From positions 1 to 64,000 of the IMG/VR virus record IMGVR_UViG_3300022674_000045: a DNA stretch of 64,000 nucleotides. One strand, written 5' to 3'. Source of the stretch: a virus. Numbering within the stretch: the stretch's first letter is position 1; the number at the start of each line of letters is the position of its first letter. Position numbers and translations under genes: made by a program. This document shows, one piece after another, positions 23,960 to 64,000 of this stretch. The notes under the pieces are model-generated. The model searched no databases. It was not told where the DNA came from and worked only from the letters and a program-made list of their open reading frames with translations.

Positions 23960-24469
23960 CTATGGAGTAAGTGGTTTACCGAGTGGAACGACGGAAAGAG
24001 AATGTTTCAAAGACCCATCCAATAGCTTTGTCGTATAAACCAAATATACCAGAGTGTCTTTTTTCTCATCATAAAACCTTGCGATTTTCATTACCTTTGT
24101 GCCGATTGATTTGCTGATCTTTGCAATATCAGTTTTTGTTGAAGTGTCTATAACACGTTTCCCATCTTTAATCGGAATTTCTCCAGTAAGTCTTGCGGCA
24201 ATCGCTGTATTGCTTGGGTCTGCCATTGCAAGAAACTTTCCACTATCAATGGTTGTGAAGAAGATCGAAACAAAGGGGTTATCAGGATCATCAACCCGAA
24301 TGACTTTGATCTTATCATTCCCTTGAACCAACCGTTTGACACAATCAACTTCCCCTATTTGTACAGCAGTCGTTTCTGCATTTACCATTCCATAAGCAAA
24401 TAGAATACTAAGGATTATAGACAAAATGCTTATGATTATTCCGTTTCTTTTCATACTATTTCGTTTCAT
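23960..24469 (-). CDS. creA: CreA-like periplasmic protein
   Basis: 169 residues from the ATG at 24469, which has AAAGGAATT before it; the ATG five codons earlier lies in the upstream gene. A signal peptide (GIIISILSIILSILFAYGMVNA) precedes a domain matching the CreA family: IGEVDCVKR, NDKIKVIRVDDPDNP, IARFYDEKKDTLVYLVYTT and a final SLSVVPLG. CreA proteins are small envelope proteins of Gram-negative bacteria with no settled biochemical role. Finding one in a phage operon suggests export to the host periplasm. It is the last gene of the leftward operon that starts at 27274. Confidence 0.75.
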   Translation of the reverse strand: MKRNSMKRNGIIISILSIILSILFAYGMVNAETTAVQIGEVDCVKRLVQGNDKIKVIRVDDPDNPFVSIFFTTIDSGKFLAMADPSNTAIAARLTGEIPIKDGKRVIDTSTKTDIAKISKSIGTKVMKIARFYDEKKDTLVYLVYTTKLLDGSLKHSLSVVPLGKPLTP

Positions 24470-24470
24470 A

Positions 24471-25052
24471 TTAATTCCTTTCATCCAGGTTAAATGTTGC
24501 GCTGTTTATTTCAGCTTGATATTTTTGAACTCTGTTCATTGCTGTTAATGCTTCTTCATAAACTTCTTCTTGGAATAGCTGAACCACATTTATAATCAGA
24601 AAGCTTATTCTTTTCACTTGCTGACCACGGATATCATTACGATCCCCACTATTCCAATACTTTGCCCAAGACATAAATACATCTTTGTCCATATCACGTC
24701 TCATTGGGTTATCAACTGTTTTTAATATTAACCCCAATTCCTGAAACAGTTGTAAAACAAAGAAACATATATTTGGATTTATTAATGCATTATTCATTGA
24801 GCAAAACACAGGAGCATTTTTGATTCCCTCTATGAATATATTGGCTTGTGTAATATTCATATTTTTTACTTGATATATACCGATTTGTTCTCTCATATGT
24901 AGATGACTCTGAAGATCGAAATCTTGGGGAATAGCAACAAACTCGGCCATTACATAGTTATCAACAAGTGTATTTAATCTTCTTTCATCACGACGACTGG
25001 GATATTTTTCAGTGGTGGCTGATTCTAATATAGGGCAGTCTCCCCCAGTCAT
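24471..25052 (-). CDS. Hypothetical protein
   Basis: 193 residues if started at the ATG at 25052. The open frame extends to 25127, but that start would overlap the upstream gene by over 100 bases, and the first confidently protein-like segment is LNTLVDNYVMAEFVAIPQDFD, so the true start may be as late as 24950. The body is helical with several Met and Gln residues (FFVLQLFQELGLILK, ISFLIINVVQLFQEEVYEE). No family is recognised. It lies one base before the CreA-like start. Confidence 0.45.
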   Translation of the reverse strand: MTGGDCPILESATTEKYPSRRDERRLNTLVDNYVMAEFVAIPQDFDLQSHLHMREQIGIYQVKNMNITQANIFIEGIKNAPVFCSMNNALINPNICFFVLQLFQELGLILKTVDNPMRRDMDKDVFMSWAKYWNSGDRNDIRGQQVKRISFLIINVVQLFQEEVYEEALTAMNRVQKYQAEINSATFNLDERN

Positions 25053-25518
25053 TTCGGTGTTCAAGGTCAGCAAAGACCCCACCATCTTCGTCACCGTATT
25101 CAAAATTGTAGACATAACATCCCTCATATTGTGTTAGGTATTTGATTGCTTTTTCCAGAGCATATTGCTCTTTCATCAGATCATTTTCTAACCACCTTTG
25201 TGCCTGCCATTGTTTATTATTTTTAAAGTCTTCTTTAGAGACTTCATGTTTTTCACAAAACCCATCTTCGCTTCTCCATGAATCAATTTCTGGAATATAA
25301 TCATGCTTCAATTTATCTGCCAAACGATTAACAGCTTCTTTGGAGTTTGGGTTTGCTTTATATGGTCTTTGCTCAACAGAATCTCTTGTAATAATATTAA
25401 TAAAATCTTCTCTCCGTATAAATGCTCGAACCTCTTTATCGGACTTGATTTTTCTTGGCCAAAAGACAATAAATGAAGAAGAACTTGAATTTGTTACAAA
25501 ATCAGTTTTTATCTTCAT
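25009..25518 (-). CDS. FVTNSSS-leader protein 1
   Basis: 169 residues with a GGGAGG site. The first 18 residues (MKIKTDFVTNSSSSSFIV) match the next gene's N-terminus nearly position for position, while the rest is unrelated. The body is acidic and aromatic, with YEGCYVYNFEYGDEDGGVFADLEHRNDWG near the C-terminus. The FVTNSSSSSF start is a recurrent N-terminal motif that I know from otherwise dissimilar bacterial and phage proteins, where its role is unexplained. It is encoded beside a radical SAM enzyme; see findings. It overlaps the upstream stop by four bases. Confidence 0.6.
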   Translation of the reverse strand: MKIKTDFVTNSSSSSFIVFWPRKIKSDKEVRAFIRREDFINIITRDSVEQRPYKANPNSKEAVNRLADKLKHDYIPEIDSWRSEDGFCEKHEVSKEDFKNNKQWQAQRWLENDLMKEQYALEKAIKYLTQYEGCYVYNFEYGDEDGGVFADLEHRNDWGRLPYIRISHH

Positions 25519-25895
25519 CTATCCTCCCAACATTTTTCTATATGCCCGACCTCAACATCAATACCCAAAGTCGATTTTAAACCATCATGTACTCTTTGTT
25601 TAAATTGACCAAGGGTTTCATTCTCTTTCATTTCGGTATATGGAATTCCGATCATTGGGGTTCCATCTCCATACGGGTGTCCTGTCGAAAAGTCAAAATC
25701 ATGATCTTCAAATAAAGCTTCGATGTACTCCAAAGGATAGTTCCGGACATCTTCTAATGTTATGTCTTCATCTTTACATGCTTCTCTGATCTTTGGAAGC
25801 AAATCTTCGGGGATCAAACTTCCTTCAATATAGGCACCGATTACTACAAATGAACAAGAACTTGAATTTGTTACAAACTCACTTTTTATTTTCAT
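25515..25895 (-). CDS. FVTNSSS-leader protein 2
   Basis: 126 residues with an AAAGGAG site. It starts MKIKSEFVTNSSSCSFVV, the same leader as the downstream gene with Cys in place of one Ser. The body is acidic, with LEDVRNYPLEYIEALFEDHDFDFSTGHPYGDGTPMIGIPY and a helical C-terminus ending in HIEKCWEDR. No enzyme motif is seen. It starts 12 bases after the radical SAM gene, so the two are co-transcribed. Confidence 0.65.
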   Translation of the reverse strand: MKIKSEFVTNSSSCSFVVIGAYIEGSLIPEDLLPKIREACKDEDITLEDVRNYPLEYIEALFEDHDFDFSTGHPYGDGTPMIGIPYTEMKENETLGQFKQRVHDGLKSTLGIDVEVGHIEKCWEDR

Positions 25896-25907
25896 TACAC
25901 TTCTCCT

Positions 25908-26900
25908 TTACAGACCAAGAGGACAACAGGCATTGTTCTTGGTTAAGATTTTTCTAAAGTTATCAAACGATTTGCTTTCATCCCAAATTTCATGAAGGCC
26001 ATTTTCAATTGGAACCGCCCAACTGTTTTCATCTGCAAAACTACAGGGCATGAATTTCATATCTGGTGTAATATATGCTGACATCCTTGATGCTTCACAT
26101 GTATCAACACTTGCTTTCTGTAATGCAGATGGATCACCATATTTCAAAACATGATTTACAAGACAACTATCCATTCCGACTTTGAATCTCGATTTTGGAT
26201 TGAATATGATACTTGAGAAAGCACGGATTTGTGCTTCTGTCGGAATTAAGAACTTCAGGTTTGAACCTGCTCCATGAGGTTTAAACAAAAGAAATACAAC
26301 AGCATTTAAACCTGTATGGTCGAACTTTTTCCACAGGCCGGGCAGTTCACCGCCGACCAATCCCCAACATTTGATATATGATTTGGATGAAAAAATCTGA
26401 TGTATATTAGTTTTAATTCCTGCTTTAATAAAACGATCCAATGCATCATATGTGTAATCCTTTTCATAATCACTCACAGCAACAGCACCACACATCTTGG
26501 ATATTTCAATCTGTTCATCAGTTAGACCAATTCCACTGGTTGTATAATTGGGAACTACATTATGTTTCCTACAATATTCAAGCATCTCTGCAAAATGGGG
26601 ATGATGATTTGGATCCCCACGCCCACCAAGAGCAACCTGATTAACATGATAAGATGTCTCATCAATGATCTGTTTGAAGTCTGAGAGCTTCATATTCGGG
26701 CGATCTATATGCCCTTGATAACAGAATGGGCACTTATGTTTGCACGTTCCCATGACGCCTATATCTAGCAGGGAGGCCATTTTTAAAACGAATGGGTCTG
26801 GATGACCGTGAACTCCACGGGTTATTTCAAGACCACTTTGTGTATTGAATAATATTTCATATTGATGGTTTTTGAAATGTTTGTCAAATTTGAGAATCAT
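25908..26900 (-). CDS. Radical SAM protein with SPASM-like C-terminus
   Basis: 330 residues. Cys53, Cys57 and Cys60 in GTCKHKCPFCYQ form the CxxxCxxC site for the 4Fe-4S cluster that cleaves S-adenosylmethionine. The following VALGGRGDPNHHPHF is the usual glycine-rich SAM contact. The C-terminal region has several Cys (DTCEAS, FMPCSFAD, NACCPLG) arranged like a SPASM or twitch auxiliary cluster. It does not have the order expected for QueE. SPASM enzymes often modify peptides or proteins, and the two neighbouring proteins sharing an FVTNSSS leader are natural candidates. Its ATG overlaps the upstream stop. Confidence 0.8.
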   Translation of the reverse strand: MILKFDKHFKNHQYEILFNTQSGLEITRGVHGHPDPFVLKMASLLDIGVMGTCKHKCPFCYQGHIDRPNMKLSDFKQIIDETSYHVNQVALGGRGDPNHHPHFAEMLEYCRKHNVVPNYTTSGIGLTDEQIEISKMCGAVAVSDYEKDYTYDALDRFIKAGIKTNIHQIFSSKSYIKCWGLVGGELPGLWKKFDHTGLNAVVFLLFKPHGAGSNLKFLIPTEAQIRAFSSIIFNPKSRFKVGMDSCLVNHVLKYGDPSALQKASVDTCEASRMSAYITPDMKFMPCSFADENSWAVPIENGLHEIWDESKSFDNFRKILTKNNACCPLGL

Positions 26901-49918: not shown

Positions 49919-50815
49919 TTACAAATACCTTTTTCCACTGAACCCTCCAGGAACTCCCTTCCAATTAATAGCGATAGCTTCAGATGTATGAATGGATTCT
50001 TCATGTGAACACTTTACAATCCAATCATGAATAGCTGGATTACCATCCAATACATTAGAGATTTCACGAATTGCATCTTCAACAAACATTGGATTTTCAG
50101 CCGCAACTCTTGCAATCTCCTGCTCATCAACTCTTTTAATTACAGGATATGGTAGGGTTTTAATTCTTGATTCAACTGATTCGATAATGTCCTCCAACCA
50201 AAGATAATTTGATTCTTCAACCTCGACTAAAATGTCAGCGAATGATCTTTGATTGTGAGGAAACCCTCGACTATTATTTTCTCCTAAATGACTACATAAT
50301 TCTGCTGAACACGGACAGTAAGATGCATATTGTATTCTCACACCCTGATAGAATCTGAATACATCTTCTAATTTATAAACGTCCACTGGTTCAACATTTG
50401 TTTTTGTCAATTCTAACTGACCTTCAAATCTACATCTGTAGTAAATTGGAAATTGGTTGTCAGATAAAATTGATTTGCGGTTGATCGGCATACGAAATTC
50501 AAACCGCATATAACTTGCTATACTTTCAACATTAACCTTTAAGTCTTCTAATATCTGTTTAATCAATTTGTGTTTCAATGGCAAATCCAAATATGGTTTT
50601 AGTGTCAGGAGAAGTCGAGACATTGAAATACCTTTGGTATCTTTGTCTAGGTGAGTCCGCATAGAAACATTTGCGTTTAGTTGATGGAATCCTCCGTATT
50701 TTGATTCTAATTTAAACGGAACCTCAACATTCTCGACCCCCACCTGTTGAATAGGGATGTGGATATTTGGAGATTCGCATTGAATATCTGGTAGACATTC
50801 TTTGCTATACGTCAT
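49919..50815 (-). CDS. folE2: GTP cyclohydrolase IB
   Basis: 298 residues, within the usual size for FolE2. Family landmarks: MPDIQ-like LPDIQCESPNIHIPIQQVGVENVEVPF, the NANVSMRTHLDKDTKGISMSRL segment, the active-site Cys in SYCPCSAELCSH (about 165-175) and PHNQRS (about 184). FolE2 converts GTP to 7,8-dihydroneopterin triphosphate with a metal other than obligate zinc. In phages this step commonly feeds 7-deazaguanine (preQ0-type) DNA modification; the downstream que/dpd-type genes are not in this window. It overlaps both neighbours by a few bases. Confidence 0.9.
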   Translation of the reverse strand: MTYSKECLPDIQCESPNIHIPIQQVGVENVEVPFKLESKYGGFHQLNANVSMRTHLDKDTKGISMSRLLLTLKPYLDLPLKHKLIKQILEDLKVNVESIASYMRFEFRMPINRKSILSDNQFPIYYRCRFEGQLELTKTNVEPVDVYKLEDVFRFYQGVRIQYASYCPCSAELCSHLGENNSRGFPHNQRSFADILVEVEESNYLWLEDIIESVESRIKTLPYPVIKRVDEQEIARVAAENPMFVEDAIREISNVLDGNPAIHDWIVKCSHEESIHTSEAIAINWKGVPGGFSGKRYL

Positions 50816-57726: not shown

Positions 57727-58070
57727 GCTCCTATCACCTCTTGTTTCCTGTATTCTATTTCATCCCAAGGTGTAAAGTAACAATCATCTAAATTAAAGCA
57801 ACATAGCATCGTTGAAATCATCTTCAATGTATTTTCGTTTAATTCTAACTCCCTTAATTTATTTGGAATACAAAATTCACCTGTACCTGGATCAGCATTT
57901 GGATGTGGATTATTTAAAAATATATTATCTATTTTTCCATCTACTGTTTGAATTTTATATCCGCGAATAACAAACTTTGGATCTAATTTTAATATTTCAT
58001 GAATTTGATTTCTAAAAATTAACTTGTAAGGAGTATGAACATTTCTGATTGTTTCAGTTTTTATGTTCAT
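57702..58070 (-). CDS. Putative E2-like (UBC-fold) protein
   Basis: 122 residues with an AGGAGCTGCA site. NNPHPNADPGTGEFCIPNKL carries an HPN tripeptide (residues 56-58) and Cys67 after a short gap, the order of E2 conjugating enzymes in which HPN precedes the catalytic Cys. A Trp follows (PWDEIEY, Trp102) with CCFNLDDCYF between, similar to the downstream E2 loop. The protein is short, as are several prokaryotic E2 families. It is coupled by TAATG to an E1-like gene and followed by an operon containing a Ubl and a JAB peptidase. I infer thioester transfer of the Ubl; the family match is by motif only. Confidence 0.55.
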   Translation of the reverse strand: MNIKTETIRNVHTPYKLIFRNQIHEILKLDPKFVIRGYKIQTVDGKIDNIFLNNPHPNADPGTGEFCIPNKLRELELNENTLKMISTMLCCFNLDDCYFTPWDEIEYRKQEVIGAWQTTIRD

Positions 58071-58930
58071 TATGCAGCTCCTGTTTCAGGTATCAATTCA
58101 ATAAAATATTTTCCATCCGTTTGATTTAAGGCAACCACAAAATTGTTAAATTGACATTGGGTTGCAACGGCTCTCGATAGATTGATTATTATATCCCCAC
58201 TTGTTCTTAAGGAATTTTTTGGGATTGAAAACTCTGACATTGGGAATAAACTACTCCCAACAAACACATCTACATCAGCTTGTTTATTTGCTTGTAGAAT
58301 TGGAACTATTTTTTCCGGAAGGTTAACAAATTTTTCTTCATTATCCGGATCTTCATATACAATATCATATGAGCAACTGTCAAGATGTTTTACATGATCC
58401 AACTCATATTTTTGAATAGATTGATCTTTTATGAGTTTTGAAATTGTATCATTATAGACCAACATTAATATTAGACTAGCTGCGTATCTCAAATCTTCTT
58501 TTGTTAATTCTGTTAGATACTTGCCCTCTGATTTGACTCTATACTCAACATTTTTTCTACAATCCACCATAAGATATCTTGAAGAAATATAAAGTCTTGC
58601 ACTGATTTCTTTTAATCTGTCATATGTGAAATCTCTGCAATCCAAAACTAAATCACATTTTGGGATTTTAGTTTTTCCTTCAATATATTTCTCATTAAAA
58701 CTGATTATTGTAACATCAGGATTTTTACGAGAAATAATTTCATCTAGGGCGTCTGTCTTTTTCAAACCAACATCAATCTGTCGATATATGGAGTTTTTGA
58801 GGTTTTTTGATTCAACTGTATCGTGGTCTATAACTATTAGAGTTTCAAGAGTTTCAAGATTCGAAACAGCGTTGGCAACAAACCCTCCAAGGGTTCCAAT
58901 GCCAATTACTGCGATTGATTTATATACCAC
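58070..58930 (-). CDS. ThiF/E1-like adenylyltransferase 1
   Basis: 286 residues, start GTG at 58930 with AGGGAGAA upstream. IAVIGIGTLGG (residues 7-16) is the nucleotide-binding loop. The acidic strand IVIDHDTVESKNL, Arg50, Lys57-Lys58 and LVLDCRDF (Asp97) are the expected ATP and Mg2+ contacts of E1/ThiF/MoeB enzymes. These adenylate the C-terminal Gly of ubiquitin-like proteins. A candidate active Cys lies in HLDSCSYD. The C-terminal 90 residues are an extra domain. It overlaps the E2-like start, so the two are probably a working pair. Confidence 0.8.
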   Translation of the reverse strand: MVYKSIAVIGIGTLGGFVANAVSNLETLETLIVIDHDTVESKNLKNSIYRQIDVGLKKTDALDEIISRKNPDVTIISFNEKYIEGKTKIPKCDLVLDCRDFTYDRLKEISARLYISSRYLMVDCRKNVEYRVKSEGKYLTELTKEDLRYAASLILMLVYNDTISKLIKDQSIQKYELDHVKHLDSCSYDIVYEDPDNEEKFVNLPEKIVPILQANKQADVDVFVGSSLFPMSEFSIPKNSLRTSGDIIINLSRAVATQCQFNNFVVALNQTDGKYFIELIPETGAA

Positions 58931-58941
58931 GTCTCAATATT

Positions 58942-58990
58942 CTCCCTTTCTTAGTTCCTTGGTATGGAGAATTTAATCCCCATACCAAGG
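58942..58990. other. Long hairpin between unknown gene and E1 gene
   Basis: CCTTGGTATGG pairs with CCATACCAAGG around an 11-base loop. No T-run follows in either direction. It lies between the stop of the 193-residue gene and the E1 ribosome-binding site, and might modulate E1/E2 expression relative to upstream genes. Confidence 0.45.
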
Positions 58991-58997
58991 GAATGTT

Positions 58998-59579
58998 TTA
59001 TGCTACAATATCTTGCAATTCTATTAGTTCAAAATCTTTTTTCTTACTATAAGTTCTGACAAACTCAATCTCTGTCGGACCAACAGGTTCTGGTCTGTAT
59101 TGAGCTTTATATTTAAAATTTTTGTTCGCTATTTCAACAGGGTATGACAACGGTATTTCATATAAATATTTCTTTATATATTTATTACCTTCAAGCATCT
59201 GCATTTGTATGGGAGTATTTGGGTCAATTGCCCTAAGCTCAGATACAATTGTTTGTCTAAAAATTGCATCATCTCGCTCATTTCTTATTTTCATCTCCCT
59301 CTTTACAAACTCATCTTGACGGCCTTTACCATTTATTTTATAGAAATTTTCTTTTCGTTTAAGGGATTTAATAGCACGTCCAAAAGATTTGTTTTTCCCC
59401 TTTAAAATATTGAATGAATCTAATAGCGAACAGATTGAAATTCCTCTTGCTTCAATCCTACCTGCTTCAGAATTGAATAACAAACATACTGTCATTGCAT
59501 TGCTCATGATTGGAGTTTTTACATTATAGAAATTAATTCTATCAACTCCATGTATATCCAAGAAATTTTTATTTAACAT
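58998..59579 (-). CDS. Hypothetical protein within the Ubl cluster
   Basis: 193 residues with an AAAGGGG site. NAMTVCLLFNSEAGRIEARGISICSLLDSFNILKGKNKSFGRAIKSLKRK is similar to a segment I know from uncharacterised phage proteins with ARGIxICSxxDxFN...GRAxKAL. The rest is basic and helical, with DPNTPIQMQMLEGNKYIKKYLYEIP. It lies between the Ubl gene and E1 gene 1, so a role in the pathway or as substrate is possible. No catalytic motif is visible. Confidence 0.5.
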   Translation of the reverse strand: MLNKNFLDIHGVDRINFYNVKTPIMSNAMTVCLLFNSEAGRIEARGISICSLLDSFNILKGKNKSFGRAIKSLKRKENFYKINGKGRQDEFVKREMKIRNERDDAIFRQTIVSELRAIDPNTPIQMQMLEGNKYIKKYLYEIPLSYPVEIANKNFKYKAQYRPEPVGPTEIEFVRTYSKKKDFELIELQDIVA

Positions 59580-59598
59580 GCTAATACCCCTTTGTTTG

Positions 59599-59619
59599 TG
59601 GGGGTCCGAAGACCCCCCA
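59599..59619 (-). other. C(UUCG)G hairpin after the Ubl gene
   Basis: On the minus strand GGGGGTC-TTCG-GACCCCC, seven or eight G/C-rich pairs closed by the very stable C(UUCG)G tetraloop. No T-run follows. It is 14 bases after the Ubl stop and 20 before the next ATG. Such a hairpin could protect the 3' end of an upstream mRNA segment or dampen downstream expression. Confidence 0.6.
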
Positions 59620-59633
59620 TATTCAACTCTATA

Positions 59634-60113
59634 CTAGCAACCCTTTTTGCCTGCGGGTTTCAGGAACTCAAGGTTGTCACCTTGCTTCAACACATAATCA
59701 CCGCCAACGTCTTTGCCGCTGACCAGACCGGTGGAAAGTTTGTCCACGTTCAGGACTTCCCGAAGGAACTCGCCCACCTGTTTCACACTACGACCCACGA
59801 CTGGGAAGTTACCGGAAGAGGCACCGCATGAAACATGAATGGTTGTGGTTGTGCGGCTTCCAAATTCACCGCTTGGTTTGGTGATAACGCTGCGACCTGT
59901 AAATTCAACACCAGCAATAGCACCAGTGCCTGTAGCAGGAGCCGCTTTGGTGATACTAACGGCCGAACGACCGAACTGACTAAGGATGGACGCAATCACG
60001 TCTTCCTTCGGACGTTTGGTGACTCCAACAATACCCAACTCATCGACACACATACGTTTCAACTCTTTAGAGGTCTTCGCTTCCAATTCTTCTCTGGTAA
60101 AGTATGTACCCAT
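59634..60113 (-). CDS. Ubiquitin-like modifier with SAP-like N-terminus
   Basis: 159 residues from the ATG at 60113, preceded by AAAAAGGAG; a GTG seven codons upstream overlaps that site. Residues about 5-48 (FTREELEAKTSKELKRMCVDELG...KEDVIASILSQF) look like a SAP/HeH helix-extended-loop-helix nucleic acid-binding motif. Residues about 88-152 (TTTIHVSC, VKQVGEFLREVLNV, VSGKDVGGDYVLKQGDNLEFL) fit a beta-grasp ThiS/MoaD-like fold. The tail KPAGKKGC ends in Gly-Cys, not Gly-Gly; removal of the Cys would expose Gly. The gene is notably G+C-richer than its neighbours. It lies between two E1-like genes. Confidence 0.65.
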   Translation of the reverse strand: MGTYFTREELEAKTSKELKRMCVDELGIVGVTKRPKEDVIASILSQFGRSAVSITKAAPATGTGAIAGVEFTGRSVITKPSGEFGSRTTTTIHVSCGASSGNFPVVGRSVKQVGEFLREVLNVDKLSTGLVSGKDVGGDYVLKQGDNLEFLKPAGKKGC

Positions 60114-60134
60114 GTTACAATTCTCCTTTTTCAC

Positions 60135-60818
60135 TTAGTTGATTGCTCTAATTTTAGAGCTTGCGTTCATTGACAGAATATCAAAATAGATTTCTGATCT
60201 TTCATAGGACTCTTTAACTACTGCGTTATAAAAAGTCCAACACATGATTGTTGCGACCCCCAAATTTGTAAAATATAGCTGGGGGTCAGAGTTAGCTAAT
60301 TCTTCACATGACATCTCATTTGGTAACTTGTCGGTTGGATTTGCAATCTCAGGATGGTATCTGCACAAATCAGGTGTAAGGTCTTTTCCTTCCTTACGAA
60401 CATACAATTGTACATTTCCATCAGTAAATTCATTTCCTCCGGAGATCAAAACAACATTTTTTAATTCTTTACAATAATTCCCTACTATCATCCGGGTCTT
60501 ATGATTGTCAACGCCCATAAACACAATATCGCCTTCTAGAATAACTTCCGAAATGTTTTCCGGAGTTACATATTCTTCAAAGGCCTCCAACCTCAATTTA
60601 GGATACTTCATCTGGAGCTCACCGGCTTTAATATCAGCTTTATTCCCGAGTCTAACAAACTCTTGTCTTTCATAATTTTTTGCTTCGTATTTGTCTCCAT
60701 CTACAAGCAAGATATCAGCTGATAAATCATTTGAATAATTTAGAAATCGGCACAATCTTTCTATAAGGATTGAACCGACCCCGCCGAGCCCTATCACAAC
60801 AATACCCATTTTATTCAT
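60135..60818 (-). CDS. ThiF/E1-like adenylyltransferase 2
   Basis: 227 residues with a GGAGAAGTAACA site. GIVVIGLGGVGS (residues 5-16), LLVDGDKYEAKNYERQEF (Asp40, Asn48, Arg51), Lys60/Lys64 and MGVDNHKTR (Asp104) are the E1/ThiF nucleotide and Mg2+ sites. PNEMSCEELANSDPQLYFTNLGVATIM places Cys171 where E1/ThiF enzymes have the catalytic Cys, and matches the layout of PRTRC-type ThiF proteins. It should adenylate the Ubl encoded immediately downstream. It overlaps nothing and lies two bases after the JAB gene. Confidence 0.85.
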   Translation of the reverse strand: MNKMGIVVIGLGGVGSILIERLCRFLNYSNDLSADILLVDGDKYEAKNYERQEFVRLGNKADIKAGELQMKYPKLRLEAFEEYVTPENISEVILEGDIVFMGVDNHKTRMIVGNYCKELKNVVLISGGNEFTDGNVQLYVRKEGKDLTPDLCRYHPEIANPTDKLPNEMSCEELANSDPQLYFTNLGVATIMCWTFYNAVVKESYERSEIYFDILSMNASSKIRAIN

Positions 60819-60820
60819 TG

Positions 60821-62500
60821 TTACTTCTCCTTCCCAAACACACGTTTAAACATTGCAAATAATGTATCTTCCCGTTTTTGAGCAGAGGGTGGTTCCGGGA
60901 TTGGTTTGCTTGCTCCATTTGGTTCAGGAATTCTTTCAATAGTCTGATCGGATTTTATCGCCTCTTGAAGAGCTACACGATTAATCTCTTCAGTTTCCGC
61001 TGATAAATATTCACCTGAGTCAGTTCTACTCTGTTCAATCAGTTGTGCTTCTTGTGAATAGCAGGCACTTCCCCCACGTATTTCATCCGGTGGGCTGTCG
61101 ATCAGTGAATAACAGAACGGGCATTGTTTCTCATCAGCAAAACGATGAAAACTATTTCCGCAAGATGGACATGTAATAAAAGCTGATGGTGGTCTATAAC
61201 CATCTTCTGGTTTAAGTGGTGAATCGTCTTCCTTGGTGTAATGATTTGGAAGTTCATCTTCATTTACTAAACTCAAATATTCATCGGTTTTACAATTTGG
61301 ACATACTGGCAACATAAGAGCGTCTGTATTATCCACGACGATTTGTTTACATTTATCACATTTATAAACTTCTGTTTCGTCAAAGTCGTCCTCTGATTGT
61401 TCTGCCAGGAATTTATGACCTCTGAATACACATGTCTTGCAGGGAAAGAACTCATCGTCTGCGCCATCGAATACCACATCATGTTTTGGAAACTCAATAG
61501 GTTTAACTTTTACGCCCACATTAAATGGACTGGCTGCTCTATTATCCATTCCTGGAAGTGGCAGCTGTTTTTGAGTTGGAGTTGTTCTGGCAGGAGCTGT
61601 ATATCTTCCTGCTTGGTTCCACAATGAGGCATCGAAATTTCGACCCCATCCTGGACTCTGACTTCTATGTTGACCATAAACTCCATACCCATAGTTGTAT
61701 CCGTAATTATTATATTGATATTGATATGTGCCTTTTTCAACCATTCCCATCCACTCGGATGGAACTTTATGATACTTTTCGGATACATTAACCACATAGC
61801 GTTTGTCATATCTTCTATAAGAATATGAAAACTGATTGGTTGCTTCTTTAACTTCTTCCATCTTGCCATTGATCCATCTATAGACACGTCTGGTTGGCCT
61901 CTGCTCCACTTCATCAATGTCTTTTGTTTTGATCAATCGCTCTACATAGTCTTCTGGTTCGACAACAAATCTATGACCATTGGCAACAATTGAAGCTGTA
62001 ATGCTAACCTCATCGTTATTGACATTACCAACGGTGATATGTAATCCATCAAAATGTTCTTCATCTTTATCATCCGTTCCTGAATGAAATGCTGACATGC
62101 TGGCATGACTATGAATTGTGCCAACCATTGTCATTCCTTCTATGGTAATAGCTTTGTTATAATCACATGCTGCACCTGTCACTTTTTGATGCGGGGGAAC
62201 AATTTTATAAACTCTTTTTGTTTCATCATAAAATAAAAGGACAATTGATTCCCCATAATATTCTTTATATACCTCTCTGAAAAATGCAACAACTCTAGCA
62301 AATTGCCCGCCAGGAATCTTTTTAATGTTCATACGGGCCATCTTTTCAACACTCTCCAAAATGGAAATATTCTGAACTGGAGCGATACTTTCCATAATTC
62401 CCATTTTCTTCTTTAGAAAAATCCCCTCTTTCGCTACGATATAACATATATCATCATCCGGGATGGGGGAAGTCCCATCATTCACATGAATCTTGAACAT
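60821..62500 (-). CDS. JAMM/JAB peptidase with multiple zinc-ribbon CxxC pairs
   Basis: 559 residues from the ATG at 62500 (GAGGAG upstream); the frame extends to 62566 but that part overlaps its upstream neighbour. His130, His132, Ser140 and Asp143 (GTIHSHASMSAFHSGTDD) satisfy HxH(x7)Sx2D, with Glu84 as a candidate JAMM glutamate. JAB enzymes cleave isopeptide or C-terminal bonds of ubiquitin-like proteins. Residues about 290-305 are Tyr/Gly/Asn rich. Between about 353 and 463 there are five CxxC pairs (PCKTC, KCDKC, VCPNC, TCPSC, QCPFC). The likely roles are maturation of the Ubl tail and deconjugation. Confidence 0.85.
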   Translation of the reverse strand: MFKIHVNDGTSPIPDDDICYIVAKEGIFLKKKMGIMESIAPVQNISILESVEKMARMNIKKIPGGQFARVVAFFREVYKEYYGESIVLLFYDETKRVYKIVPPHQKVTGAACDYNKAITIEGMTMVGTIHSHASMSAFHSGTDDKDEEHFDGLHITVGNVNNDEVSITASIVANGHRFVVEPEDYVERLIKTKDIDEVEQRPTRRVYRWINGKMEEVKEATNQFSYSYRRYDKRYVVNVSEKYHKVPSEWMGMVEKGTYQYQYNNYGYNYGYGVYGQHRSQSPGWGRNFDASLWNQAGRYTAPARTTPTQKQLPLPGMDNRAASPFNVGVKVKPIEFPKHDVVFDGADDEFFPCKTCVFRGHKFLAEQSEDDFDETEVYKCDKCKQIVVDNTDALMLPVCPNCKTDEYLSLVNEDELPNHYTKEDDSPLKPEDGYRPPSAFITCPSCGNSFHRFADEKQCPFCYSLIDSPPDEIRGGSACYSQEAQLIEQSRTDSGEYLSAETEEINRVALQEAIKSDQTIERIPEPNGASKPIPEPPSAQKREDTLFAMFKRVFGKEK

Positions 62501-64000
62501 GAAGGAAACTCCTCTCTTCTTGTAAAAATTGAAGTTGTGATAATGAATTTTCAATAAACAATCCATGGAAATTAGGAAATGCCCATGTGGCTTCCATTTT
62601 AGATTGCTCTGTTGGACTTATTCTTGGATTTGGAATACAATCCAATACTGTGTGGTTCTTTACATAATTGTCTATTGTATATGTTTCTGGATACGATGTG
62701 TAATATCCAAGAGACATCATTCTTGGGGTTTTGCTTTCATTAGTTCTTATAACTAACCACCCAAATGAATTTTGATAATCCCCACCAACACCTGTTAAAA
62801 TATCACCAGGTTGTGGTTTAATCTTTGTAATGTCAATTGGAGCGTGGGCTAATGTTGCCCATTTTTTCGACTTCATCCCCACTCTTTTAAATTTCTCCAT
62901 CATATCACTATACCACAATGTACAACAATTTGAGCATAGAACTAATGGTTCATCTCCACCCGTATCTGTGATAAATCCAATAATAATATTTACATCTTTC
63001 TTTGGGAAATGTGGAATATAACCATGTTGTGCAATAATCTTAGTTCCAGCTGTAACTCTATCGAATTTGTTGGTTATCTTTCTAATTTTGCCAACACTTA
63101 TTATTGATGAACCTCTACTACCTGATATACCCTTCACATATTCAACTTGTGTTAAAGCTCCATCTTTATCACTTAACACAAAATTCAATGTGCCTTTAGC
63201 TTCATCTATCGTGAATGCTGTGATTGTTCTTACCATCAGCATATTAATTGGGTTATTCCAATCAGAAAATACGACCTTATCTCCAAGATCAAACCTAATG
63301 TTGAGATCAAAACTTTCAACTTCAAATGTAAGGCCATCATTTTTGATTAGATGTTCTGCTACTTGTTTAATATCGGGGGTTGATGTAGAGTGATTATTAT
63401 CATAAACAACTCCGCCTGGTGTTGCCCAACAATAACTCTCAACTCCAGCATGCCTCATATCAGTCTGAGATAATAACTTTCTCCCAACACGAAATACTTG
63501 TGGTAATGGTCTGATTTCATCTGCTGTAAATAATCTTCTTTGCTTTCGACCAAGCATTGACATTCTTCTAGATGAACTATCTCGTACCTGTAAATTATAT
63601 CGTTGATCTTGGGGTGAGTACGATTTGTCTGTTCCCACAAATGAAAATTTCAAAGTTCCATCTTCACGAACATCAAGACCAGTATATTGAGCATTACTTC
63701 CAGCATGATATGGCCCAGAGTTTACTGAACGGATAATAACGTAATTTTCTTCTTTGTTCAATATAATATTATCATATTTCGGAGTATCTAAATTAAAAAG
63801 TTCTCCTTCTGTATTTTCAAGAATATAAAATGAATTACCTATTCTTGCTTCCGTAACTCCATCTCTTGCATTTCTAATGAAATGAACTTTTCTGTAACTT
63901 GGATTTCCATACCCATCTTTGACGACTATAATATCGCCTTCTTTAATAACTGTCCCATTTTTCATTGTGCCTTGTTCATCATATCTTAATTTTTTGGCAC
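62478..64000 (-). CDS. Hypothetical protein (5' end outside window)
   Basis: At least 495 residues from the ATG at 63965; the frame remains open to the window edge with protein-like sequence (AKKLRYDEQGT) and no good ribosome-binding site at 63965, so the true start is probably beyond the window. The protein is beta rich: repeated KxGDIIVVKDGYGNP-like and LGDKVVFSDWNNP, KPQPGDILTGVGG segments, each with a Gly-Asp turn, resembling SH3-like or KOW-type barrels. LCSNCCTLWY holds a Cys cluster. It overlaps the JAB start by 23 bases and may be part of the Ubl pathway. Confidence 0.6.
   Translation of the reverse strand, partial: AKKLRYDEQGTMKNGTVIKEGDIIVVKDGYGNPSYRKVHFIRNARDGVTEARIGNSFYILENTEGELFNLDTPKYDNIILNKEENYVIIRSVNSGPYHAGSNAQYTGLDVREDGTLKFSFVGTDKSYSPQDQRYNLQVRDSSSRRMSMLGRKQRRLFTADEIRPLPQVFRVGRKLLSQTDMRHAGVESYCWATPGGVVYDNNHSTSTPDIKQVAEHLIKNDGLTFEVESFDLNIRFDLGDKVVFSDWNNPINMLMVRTITAFTIDEAKGTLNFVLSDKDGALTQVEYVKGISGSRGSSIISVGKIRKITNKFDRVTAGTKIIAQHGYIPHFPKKDVNIIIGFITDTGGDEPLVLCSNCCTLWYSDMMEKFKRVGMKSKKWATLAHAPIDITKIKPQPGDILTGVGGDYQNSFGWLVIRTNESKTPRMMSLGYYTSYPETYTIDNYVKNHTVLDCIPNPRISPTEQSKMEATWAFPNFHGLFIENSLSQLQFLQEERSFLHVQDSCE

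Follow-up and report, generated by a model that had tools for sequence, protein, structure and literature searches.

Why should two unrelated viral proteins, encoded side by side, begin with nearly the same residues, and why next to a radical S-adenosylmethionine (rSAM) enzyme? The question arises from a 64-kb stretch (the window) of a 101.6-kb virus record, IMG/VR IMGVR_UViG_3300022674_000045, in which the rSAM gene P0003 is followed by P0002 and P0001. The two proteins have the N-terminus MKIK(T/S)(D/E)FVTNSSS(S/C)SF in common, 14 of their first 18 residues being identical (the next best pair among the 69 open reading frames of the window shares 7), and their bodies are unrelated, falling into separate BLAST clusters. 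A first-pass annotation had pointed to this common leader and to an rSAM gene with extra C-terminal cysteines directly upstream. Both observations hold, as does the placement of the genes: P0003 lies above the Pfam Radical_SAM (PF04055) cut-off (34.3 versus 29.5 bits) and, beyond C53/C57/C60, contains C246, C268, C286 and C325/326. The answer that we consider probable, judging from sequence comparisons, is that one rSAM enzyme recognizes the common N-terminal tag and modifies the tag or adjacent residues on many unrelated small proteins.

Conservation of the tag is evident at the protein level. In the window, the 21-nt pattern encoding N(S/T/C)5F is found five times, compared to 0.27 expected, and it is N-terminal only in P0001 and P0002. 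Across 124 distinct tagged proteins, the tag has the 16-residue consensus M-K-x-(R/K)-x-(G/D)-F-V-(S/T)-N-S-S-S-(S/T/C)-S-F. The N and the following two S are invariant (124/124), though the search pattern permitted other letters at N. Serine codons are mixed (TCN, 375; AGY, 201), and 111 distinct DNA sequences are found among 121 tags. Because the codons vary and nearly every DNA version is different, selection acts on the protein sequence of the tag. Behind it lie at least 46 BLAST body families, with a median tagged protein length of 133 aa (mostly 80–210 aa). Comparison of 48 representative tagged proteins with Pfam, NCBIfam and PHROG gave no convincing known domain. P0001 matches phrog_7397 (1.7e-8), and so do 39 of the 48 otherwise unrelated proteins, for P0002 at least solely via the tag. 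Literature searches on the motif, and on phage rSAM enzymes and ribosomally synthesized and post-translationally modified peptides (RiPPs), returned nothing relevant in the papers covered.

Tagged genes and the enzyme occur together well beyond the window. Scanning IMG/VR with P0003 gave 52 relatives, 26 of which have tagged genes downstream on the same strand, in arrays of up to five per locus that usually begin 0–30 bp past the enzyme stop codon. The strand was always that of the enzyme in the fetched loci, by 56:0 in this enzyme-first set and by 48:0 and 100:0 in others. The tagged genes behave as if they formed a cassette. Searching with the DNA pattern of the tag alone yielded 37 viral loci. 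When whole records were mapped (PF04055 plus a family alignment for enzymes, a relaxed pattern for tags), 20 contained both, and in 18 of them no more than 3 kb separated a family enzyme from a tagged gene. The random mean is 3.3, and none of 20,000 permutation trials reached 18. Of 21 further rSAM genes encoded in these records, none is within 3 kb of a tag. Records usually contain one family enzyme versus 1–13 tagged genes. A second scan with other serine codons returned 63 stretches, 55 of them new. A true N-terminal tag is present in 52 of the latter, and 25 of these 52 have the enzyme inside the short fetched piece (strand, 100:0). Twenty-four second-scan records lacking the enzyme in the fetched piece were checked whole, and exactly one enzyme was found in 13, mostly long records. 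The enrichment of rSAM genes within two genes of such tags, which the first-pass annotation had proposed as a check, is thus borne out for one rSAM family specifically, and it recurs in the second scan, in bacterial genomes searched by motif only and in natural fusions.

Serine runs are common in proteins, and low-complexity runs might simply have come to lie beside members of a common enzyme superfamily. We regard such chance association as next to impossible, given the position-specific N and S, the fixed N-terminal position and the mixed serine codons; the permutation refutes it.

The form of the tag also follows the form of the enzyme. In a tree whose deep joins are unsure owing to long branches, enzyme clades match tag dialects: K.D.FVTN tags go with CYQG enzymes, R.G.FVSN tags with CYKSN enzymes and R.D.FVTN tags with a further enzyme group, while the fused enzymes carrying ATNSSSSHS (see below) make up one group. 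The second motif scan showed the same match. Two separate observations concern the enzymes found in these surveys. Near tags in a few of the phages (L098, L102 and L109), another rSAM family (ILTRKCNLDCEYCAI...) is encoded that the family model does not match, and in L098 it begins directly after a tagged gene. In L236 (3783–6128), the rSAM gene is seemingly broken by an intein-like insert just ahead of the ALGG motif (782-aa frame).

In some loci, tag and enzyme are a single protein. A scan for the motif F-A-T-N-S-S-S-S-H-S returned seven viral loci, and in all seven a single protein (454–495 aa, one cut by the contig end) carries the motif N-terminally and a domain of this rSAM family C-terminally; an eighth fusion was met by chance. 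The fusion of the cultured Salmonella phage Arash is WGL32597 (L138, 5989–7419), annotated ‘methyltransferase’. Two bacterial plasmids, one from Methylobacterium indicum and one from Deferribacter desulfuricans, also carry fusions, there with a slightly varied motif; the M. indicum fused enzyme is WP_207184000. A short N-terminal motif here predicts an rSAM domain 150–200 residues further on, which is strong and independent evidence that the two are functionally linked.

We propose that the rSAM enzyme, which has a SPASM/twitch-like C-terminus, would recognize the common tag of unrelated small proteins and abstract hydrogen from a C–H bond, either within the Ser/Asn/Phe block of the tag or in the residues directly after it. 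As guesses at the product, Phe or His might close a ring with a neighboring Ser, Thr or Asn, or a Ser might be oxidized. Because the tag is on the enzyme itself in the fused form, self-modification or a built-in substrate domain would be expected there. That the tagged proteins are substrates of the enzyme appears likely; that the modified residues lie within the tag has about an even chance. The same tag, being terminal, disordered and invariant across many bodies, might instead be an address that some other partner reads, for packaging, localization or the assembly of complexes, with the rSAM co-expressed or itself a client, as the fused rSAMs carrying the tag would allow. However, the link tracks one rSAM family and not the other rSAMs of the same phages, it persists in bacteria, clade and dialect match, and stand-alone rSAMs have no tag, making an address function distinctly unlikely.

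What kind of enzyme is this? The SPASM match of P0003 is weak (16.4 bits versus a cut-off of 21.5), and a bacterial homologue is above the SPASM cut-off (TIGR04085, 32.1 versus 27). Four C-terminal Cys are conserved among stand-alone enzymes and missing from fused ones. No NCBIfam equivalog, rSAM peptide maturases included, reached its cut-off (best, 42.1 versus 381 bits). The model of a fused enzyme matched SuiB (Z 21.8), SkfB (21.6), viperin (18.7) and PqqE (17.7), and three short strands (146–169) ahead of its rSAM domain stand at the start of the SuiB and SkfB alignments. For the stand-alone family, the best PDB sequence matches include SkfB (3.8e-7) and SuiB (1.2e-5). The nearest counterparts of the enzyme, in modelled fold and in sequence, are the RiPP maturases SuiB (PDB 5V1T, the streptide rSAM/SPASM maturase) and SkfB (PDB 6EFN, the sporulation killing factor maturase), at 14–16% identity.

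The presence of viperins among the structural neighbors raises the idea of an antiviral or anti-host, nucleotide-modifying rSAM for which the tagged proteins act as regulators or partners. Consistent with this, the bacterial homologue gave a PADLOC pVip hit (E 2e-11) and resides in an operon with an Avs-like protein (see below). Yet viperin models are far below their cut-off of 180 bits, with 33 for the bacterial homologue and 17.6 for P0003, and SuiB and SkfB lead by fold and SkfB by sequence. Moreover, the stand-alone enzymes retain the four extra C-terminal Cys, which are typical of SPASM/twitch enzymes rather than viperins. We therefore view a viperin-like role as very unlikely.

With both SuiB and SkfB, an N-terminal leader guides the enzyme to the ribosomal precursor that it modifies. 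Each has one short dedicated precursor, whereas the phage enzyme accompanies many different folded proteins, and the fused forms differ further from both in lacking the C-terminal Cys. In a classical RiPP system, the tag would be a cleaved leader and the next 60–200 residues the modified core. A common N-terminal leader is indeed present on proteins encoded next to the enzyme, the nearest relatives of the enzyme are SuiB and SkfB, and the bodies are variable. However, in the P0001 model (predicted local distance difference test score (pLDDT), 85), residues 1–11 are disordered and the first strand begins at residue 13, inside or right after the tag, such that the body is predicted to start at the tag end with no core peptide visible. 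Bodies of the P0001 type are conserved from the window phage to RB43, and no protease or transporter gene adjoins the locus in the window (neighbors elsewhere were not systematically surveyed). A classical RiPP pathway thus seems unlikely. We have not filed the system as one because a short variable core was looked for in one model, that of P0001 (the sole body modelled), and a domain folded from residue 13 was seen instead. The first-pass suggestion of a RiPP-like or protein-maturation system survives in its leader–enzyme link. The system would resemble leader-guided rSAM maturation, but RiPP is probably not the exact word for it. A fold search with the P0001 body against PDB and BFVD gave zero matches at E ≤ 0.001, from which a new fold should not be deduced.

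Among cultured phages, RB43, Lw1, Matisse, Miro, phiEap-3 and CPRSA have the enzyme plus two or three tags; in T4, phiKZ, RB49, Aeh1, KVP40 and G, the tag is absent. As the positive phages are all Straboviridae, they represent few independent events. P0003 and P0001 match PHROG 7293 and PHROG 7397, respectively, which include proteins of Straboviridae such as RB43 and are both annotated ‘unknown function’; in the literature searched, we found no link between the two.

Several observations weigh against modification of the tags by the enzyme, or against a fixed pairing of the two. For 26 of the 52 close enzyme relatives, a tagged gene is absent from the fetched DNA, and for six of the tagless relatives a search of the whole contig, of 52 kb at most, still gave zero tags. 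In loci of this kind, other genes follow the enzyme, in many the homologue of the untagged gene of the window and then CreA. The cassette has possibly been lost or is distant in these relatives, their contigs being fragments. Conversely, 4 of 29 long (>90 kb) tagged records show no enzyme, although all four may be fragments. Distance is a further point. In one record (G030) the tags are ∼129 kb away from the enzyme, and in RB43-like phages the pair is ∼20 kb apart, so adjacency is not obligatory. No match to a RiPP recognition element (RRE) or PqqD family was obtained in Pfam and NCBIfam scans, and the three short strands ahead of the rSAM domain in the fused-enzyme model would be at most a possible, incomplete candidate. 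Finally, in the fused-enzyme model the pLDDT of the tag is under 50, which allows no conclusion on docking in the active site, and the P0001 model likewise gives no confident tag position.

The pair is not confined to viruses. A tagged protein and a close rSAM were found together in seven plasmid records. On plasmids of Agrobacterium, Rhizobium and Rhodobacter, a SMEK-domain protein is encoded with a tagged protein of 131 or 132 aa and an rSAM, joined in two of the three loci by a ∼120-aa protein. The large protein has SMEK_N, an N-terminus of the restriction endonuclease type that is also found in short-Argonaute systems (1e-51), and an Avs2-like nucleoside triphosphatase (NTPase) core (1e-20). 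SMEK is a nuclease domain of short prokaryotic Argonaute systems (PMC10810196). Against the Avs2 equivalog the large protein scores 45 versus 1000 bits, the match being limited to the NTPase core. Its likeness is to the STAND NTPase Avs2/AVAST and to SMEK-nuclease defense proteins. To our knowledge, no known Avs system has been described in which a small tagged protein and an rSAM are partners. The operon of SMEK, Avs2-like NTPase, tagged protein and rSAM was seen on three alphaproteobacterial plasmids (L189, L190, L191) and in a Desulfobacterota genome (L211), and is a candidate anti-phage system.

When 395 Desulfobacterota and 392 Bacillota genomes were searched by motif only, a few true tags were found, in about 1% of those sampled. 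A family rSAM is beside the tag in four of these loci (L209, L211, L212, L213), one of which has the full SMEK operon; L212 is probably a phage, as a tail-sheath-like gene adjoins. The L209 genome has two tags on another contig as well, where the 8 kb fetched contain no rSAM, and the tag of L215 sits at a contig end. The tag is therefore present in bacteria, as the first-pass annotation had it, but it is uncommon there and mainly viral, rather than widespread. As an observation apart, L209 (from G442) encodes at 1040–2563 a protein that, judged by eye, is ADP-ribosylglycohydrolase-like; its gene lies upstream of the rSAM and three tagged genes.

Since the same tag–enzyme pair is found in large phages and in bacterial Avs-like operons, it may act on both sides of the phage–host conflict. 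A broader reading, tentative and in our view somewhat doubtful, is a general protein-tagging system in which one rSAM would put a modified N-terminal tag on dozens of folded proteins, serving both phages and Avs-like operons, in contrast to a pathway for peptide natural products. The data suggest an undescribed system, in which one enzyme would recognize a tag on many different proteins and modify them chemically. If the proposal is right, an enzyme–substrate system operates in large phages, cultured Straboviridae and some bacteria, its genes being annotated as hypothetical, radical SAM or, in Arash, ‘methyltransferase’. The tag would then be a common handle for at least 46 unannotated protein families and a natural short sequence steering radical chemistry onto folded proteins, and would provide a testable link between large phages and the Avs-like bacterial operon. 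The pair occurs in the E. coli phages RB43 and Lw1. Their rSAM enzymes are CCK74014 (RB43) and AGJ71568 (Lw1), and the tagged protein CCK73969 is from RB43.

Features of the locus are collected in Table 1. The gene order on the minus strand is a 129-aa protein, P0003, P0002, P0001, an untagged protein and a CreA-family protein.

Table 1. Coordinates of the tag–enzyme locus and its flanking genes in the window
Feature	Position	Strand	Basis and remarks
rSAM enzyme P0003, SPASM/twitch-like C-terminal Cys, putative tag maturase	25908..26900	-	330 aa; Pfam Radical_SAM, phrog_7293 5e-28, conserved Cys, SkfB/SuiB closest solved sequences
CxxxCxxC radical-SAM cluster motif, C53/C57/C60	26721..26744	-	Sequence; invariant in family alignment
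Tagged protein P0002	25515..25895	-	126 aa; body family n = 17 among collected loci
N-terminal tag of P0002, MKIKSEFVTNSSSCSFVV	25842..25895	-	Sequence
Tagged protein P0001	25009..25518	-	169 aa; body family n = 21 (phrog_7397, RB43 included); 4-bp overlap with P0002
N-terminal tag of P0001, MKIKTDFVTNSSSSSFIV	25465..25518	-	Sequence; model: residues 1-11 disordered, strand from 13
Untagged flanking gene, outside the system	24471..25127	-	Directly 3' of rSAM in relatives without tagged genes
CreA-family flanking gene, outside the system	23960..24484	-	Pfam CreA 2.2e-27; next in conserved order

Other genes of the window were noted in passing. Tail-sheath and multisubunit RNA polymerase genes are present. 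A CreA-family protein is encoded here by a phage, and is downstream of the rSAM in many relatives. At 58070–62566 (minus strand), two ThiF/E1-like proteins and a Prok-JAB protein resembling PRTRC protein A (6.5e-12, below cut-off) form an apparent cassette of the ubiquitin-like or PRTRC type, carried by the phage. A GTP cyclohydrolase FolE2, above the NCBIfam cut-off, is encoded in the phage genome at 49919–50815 (minus strand).
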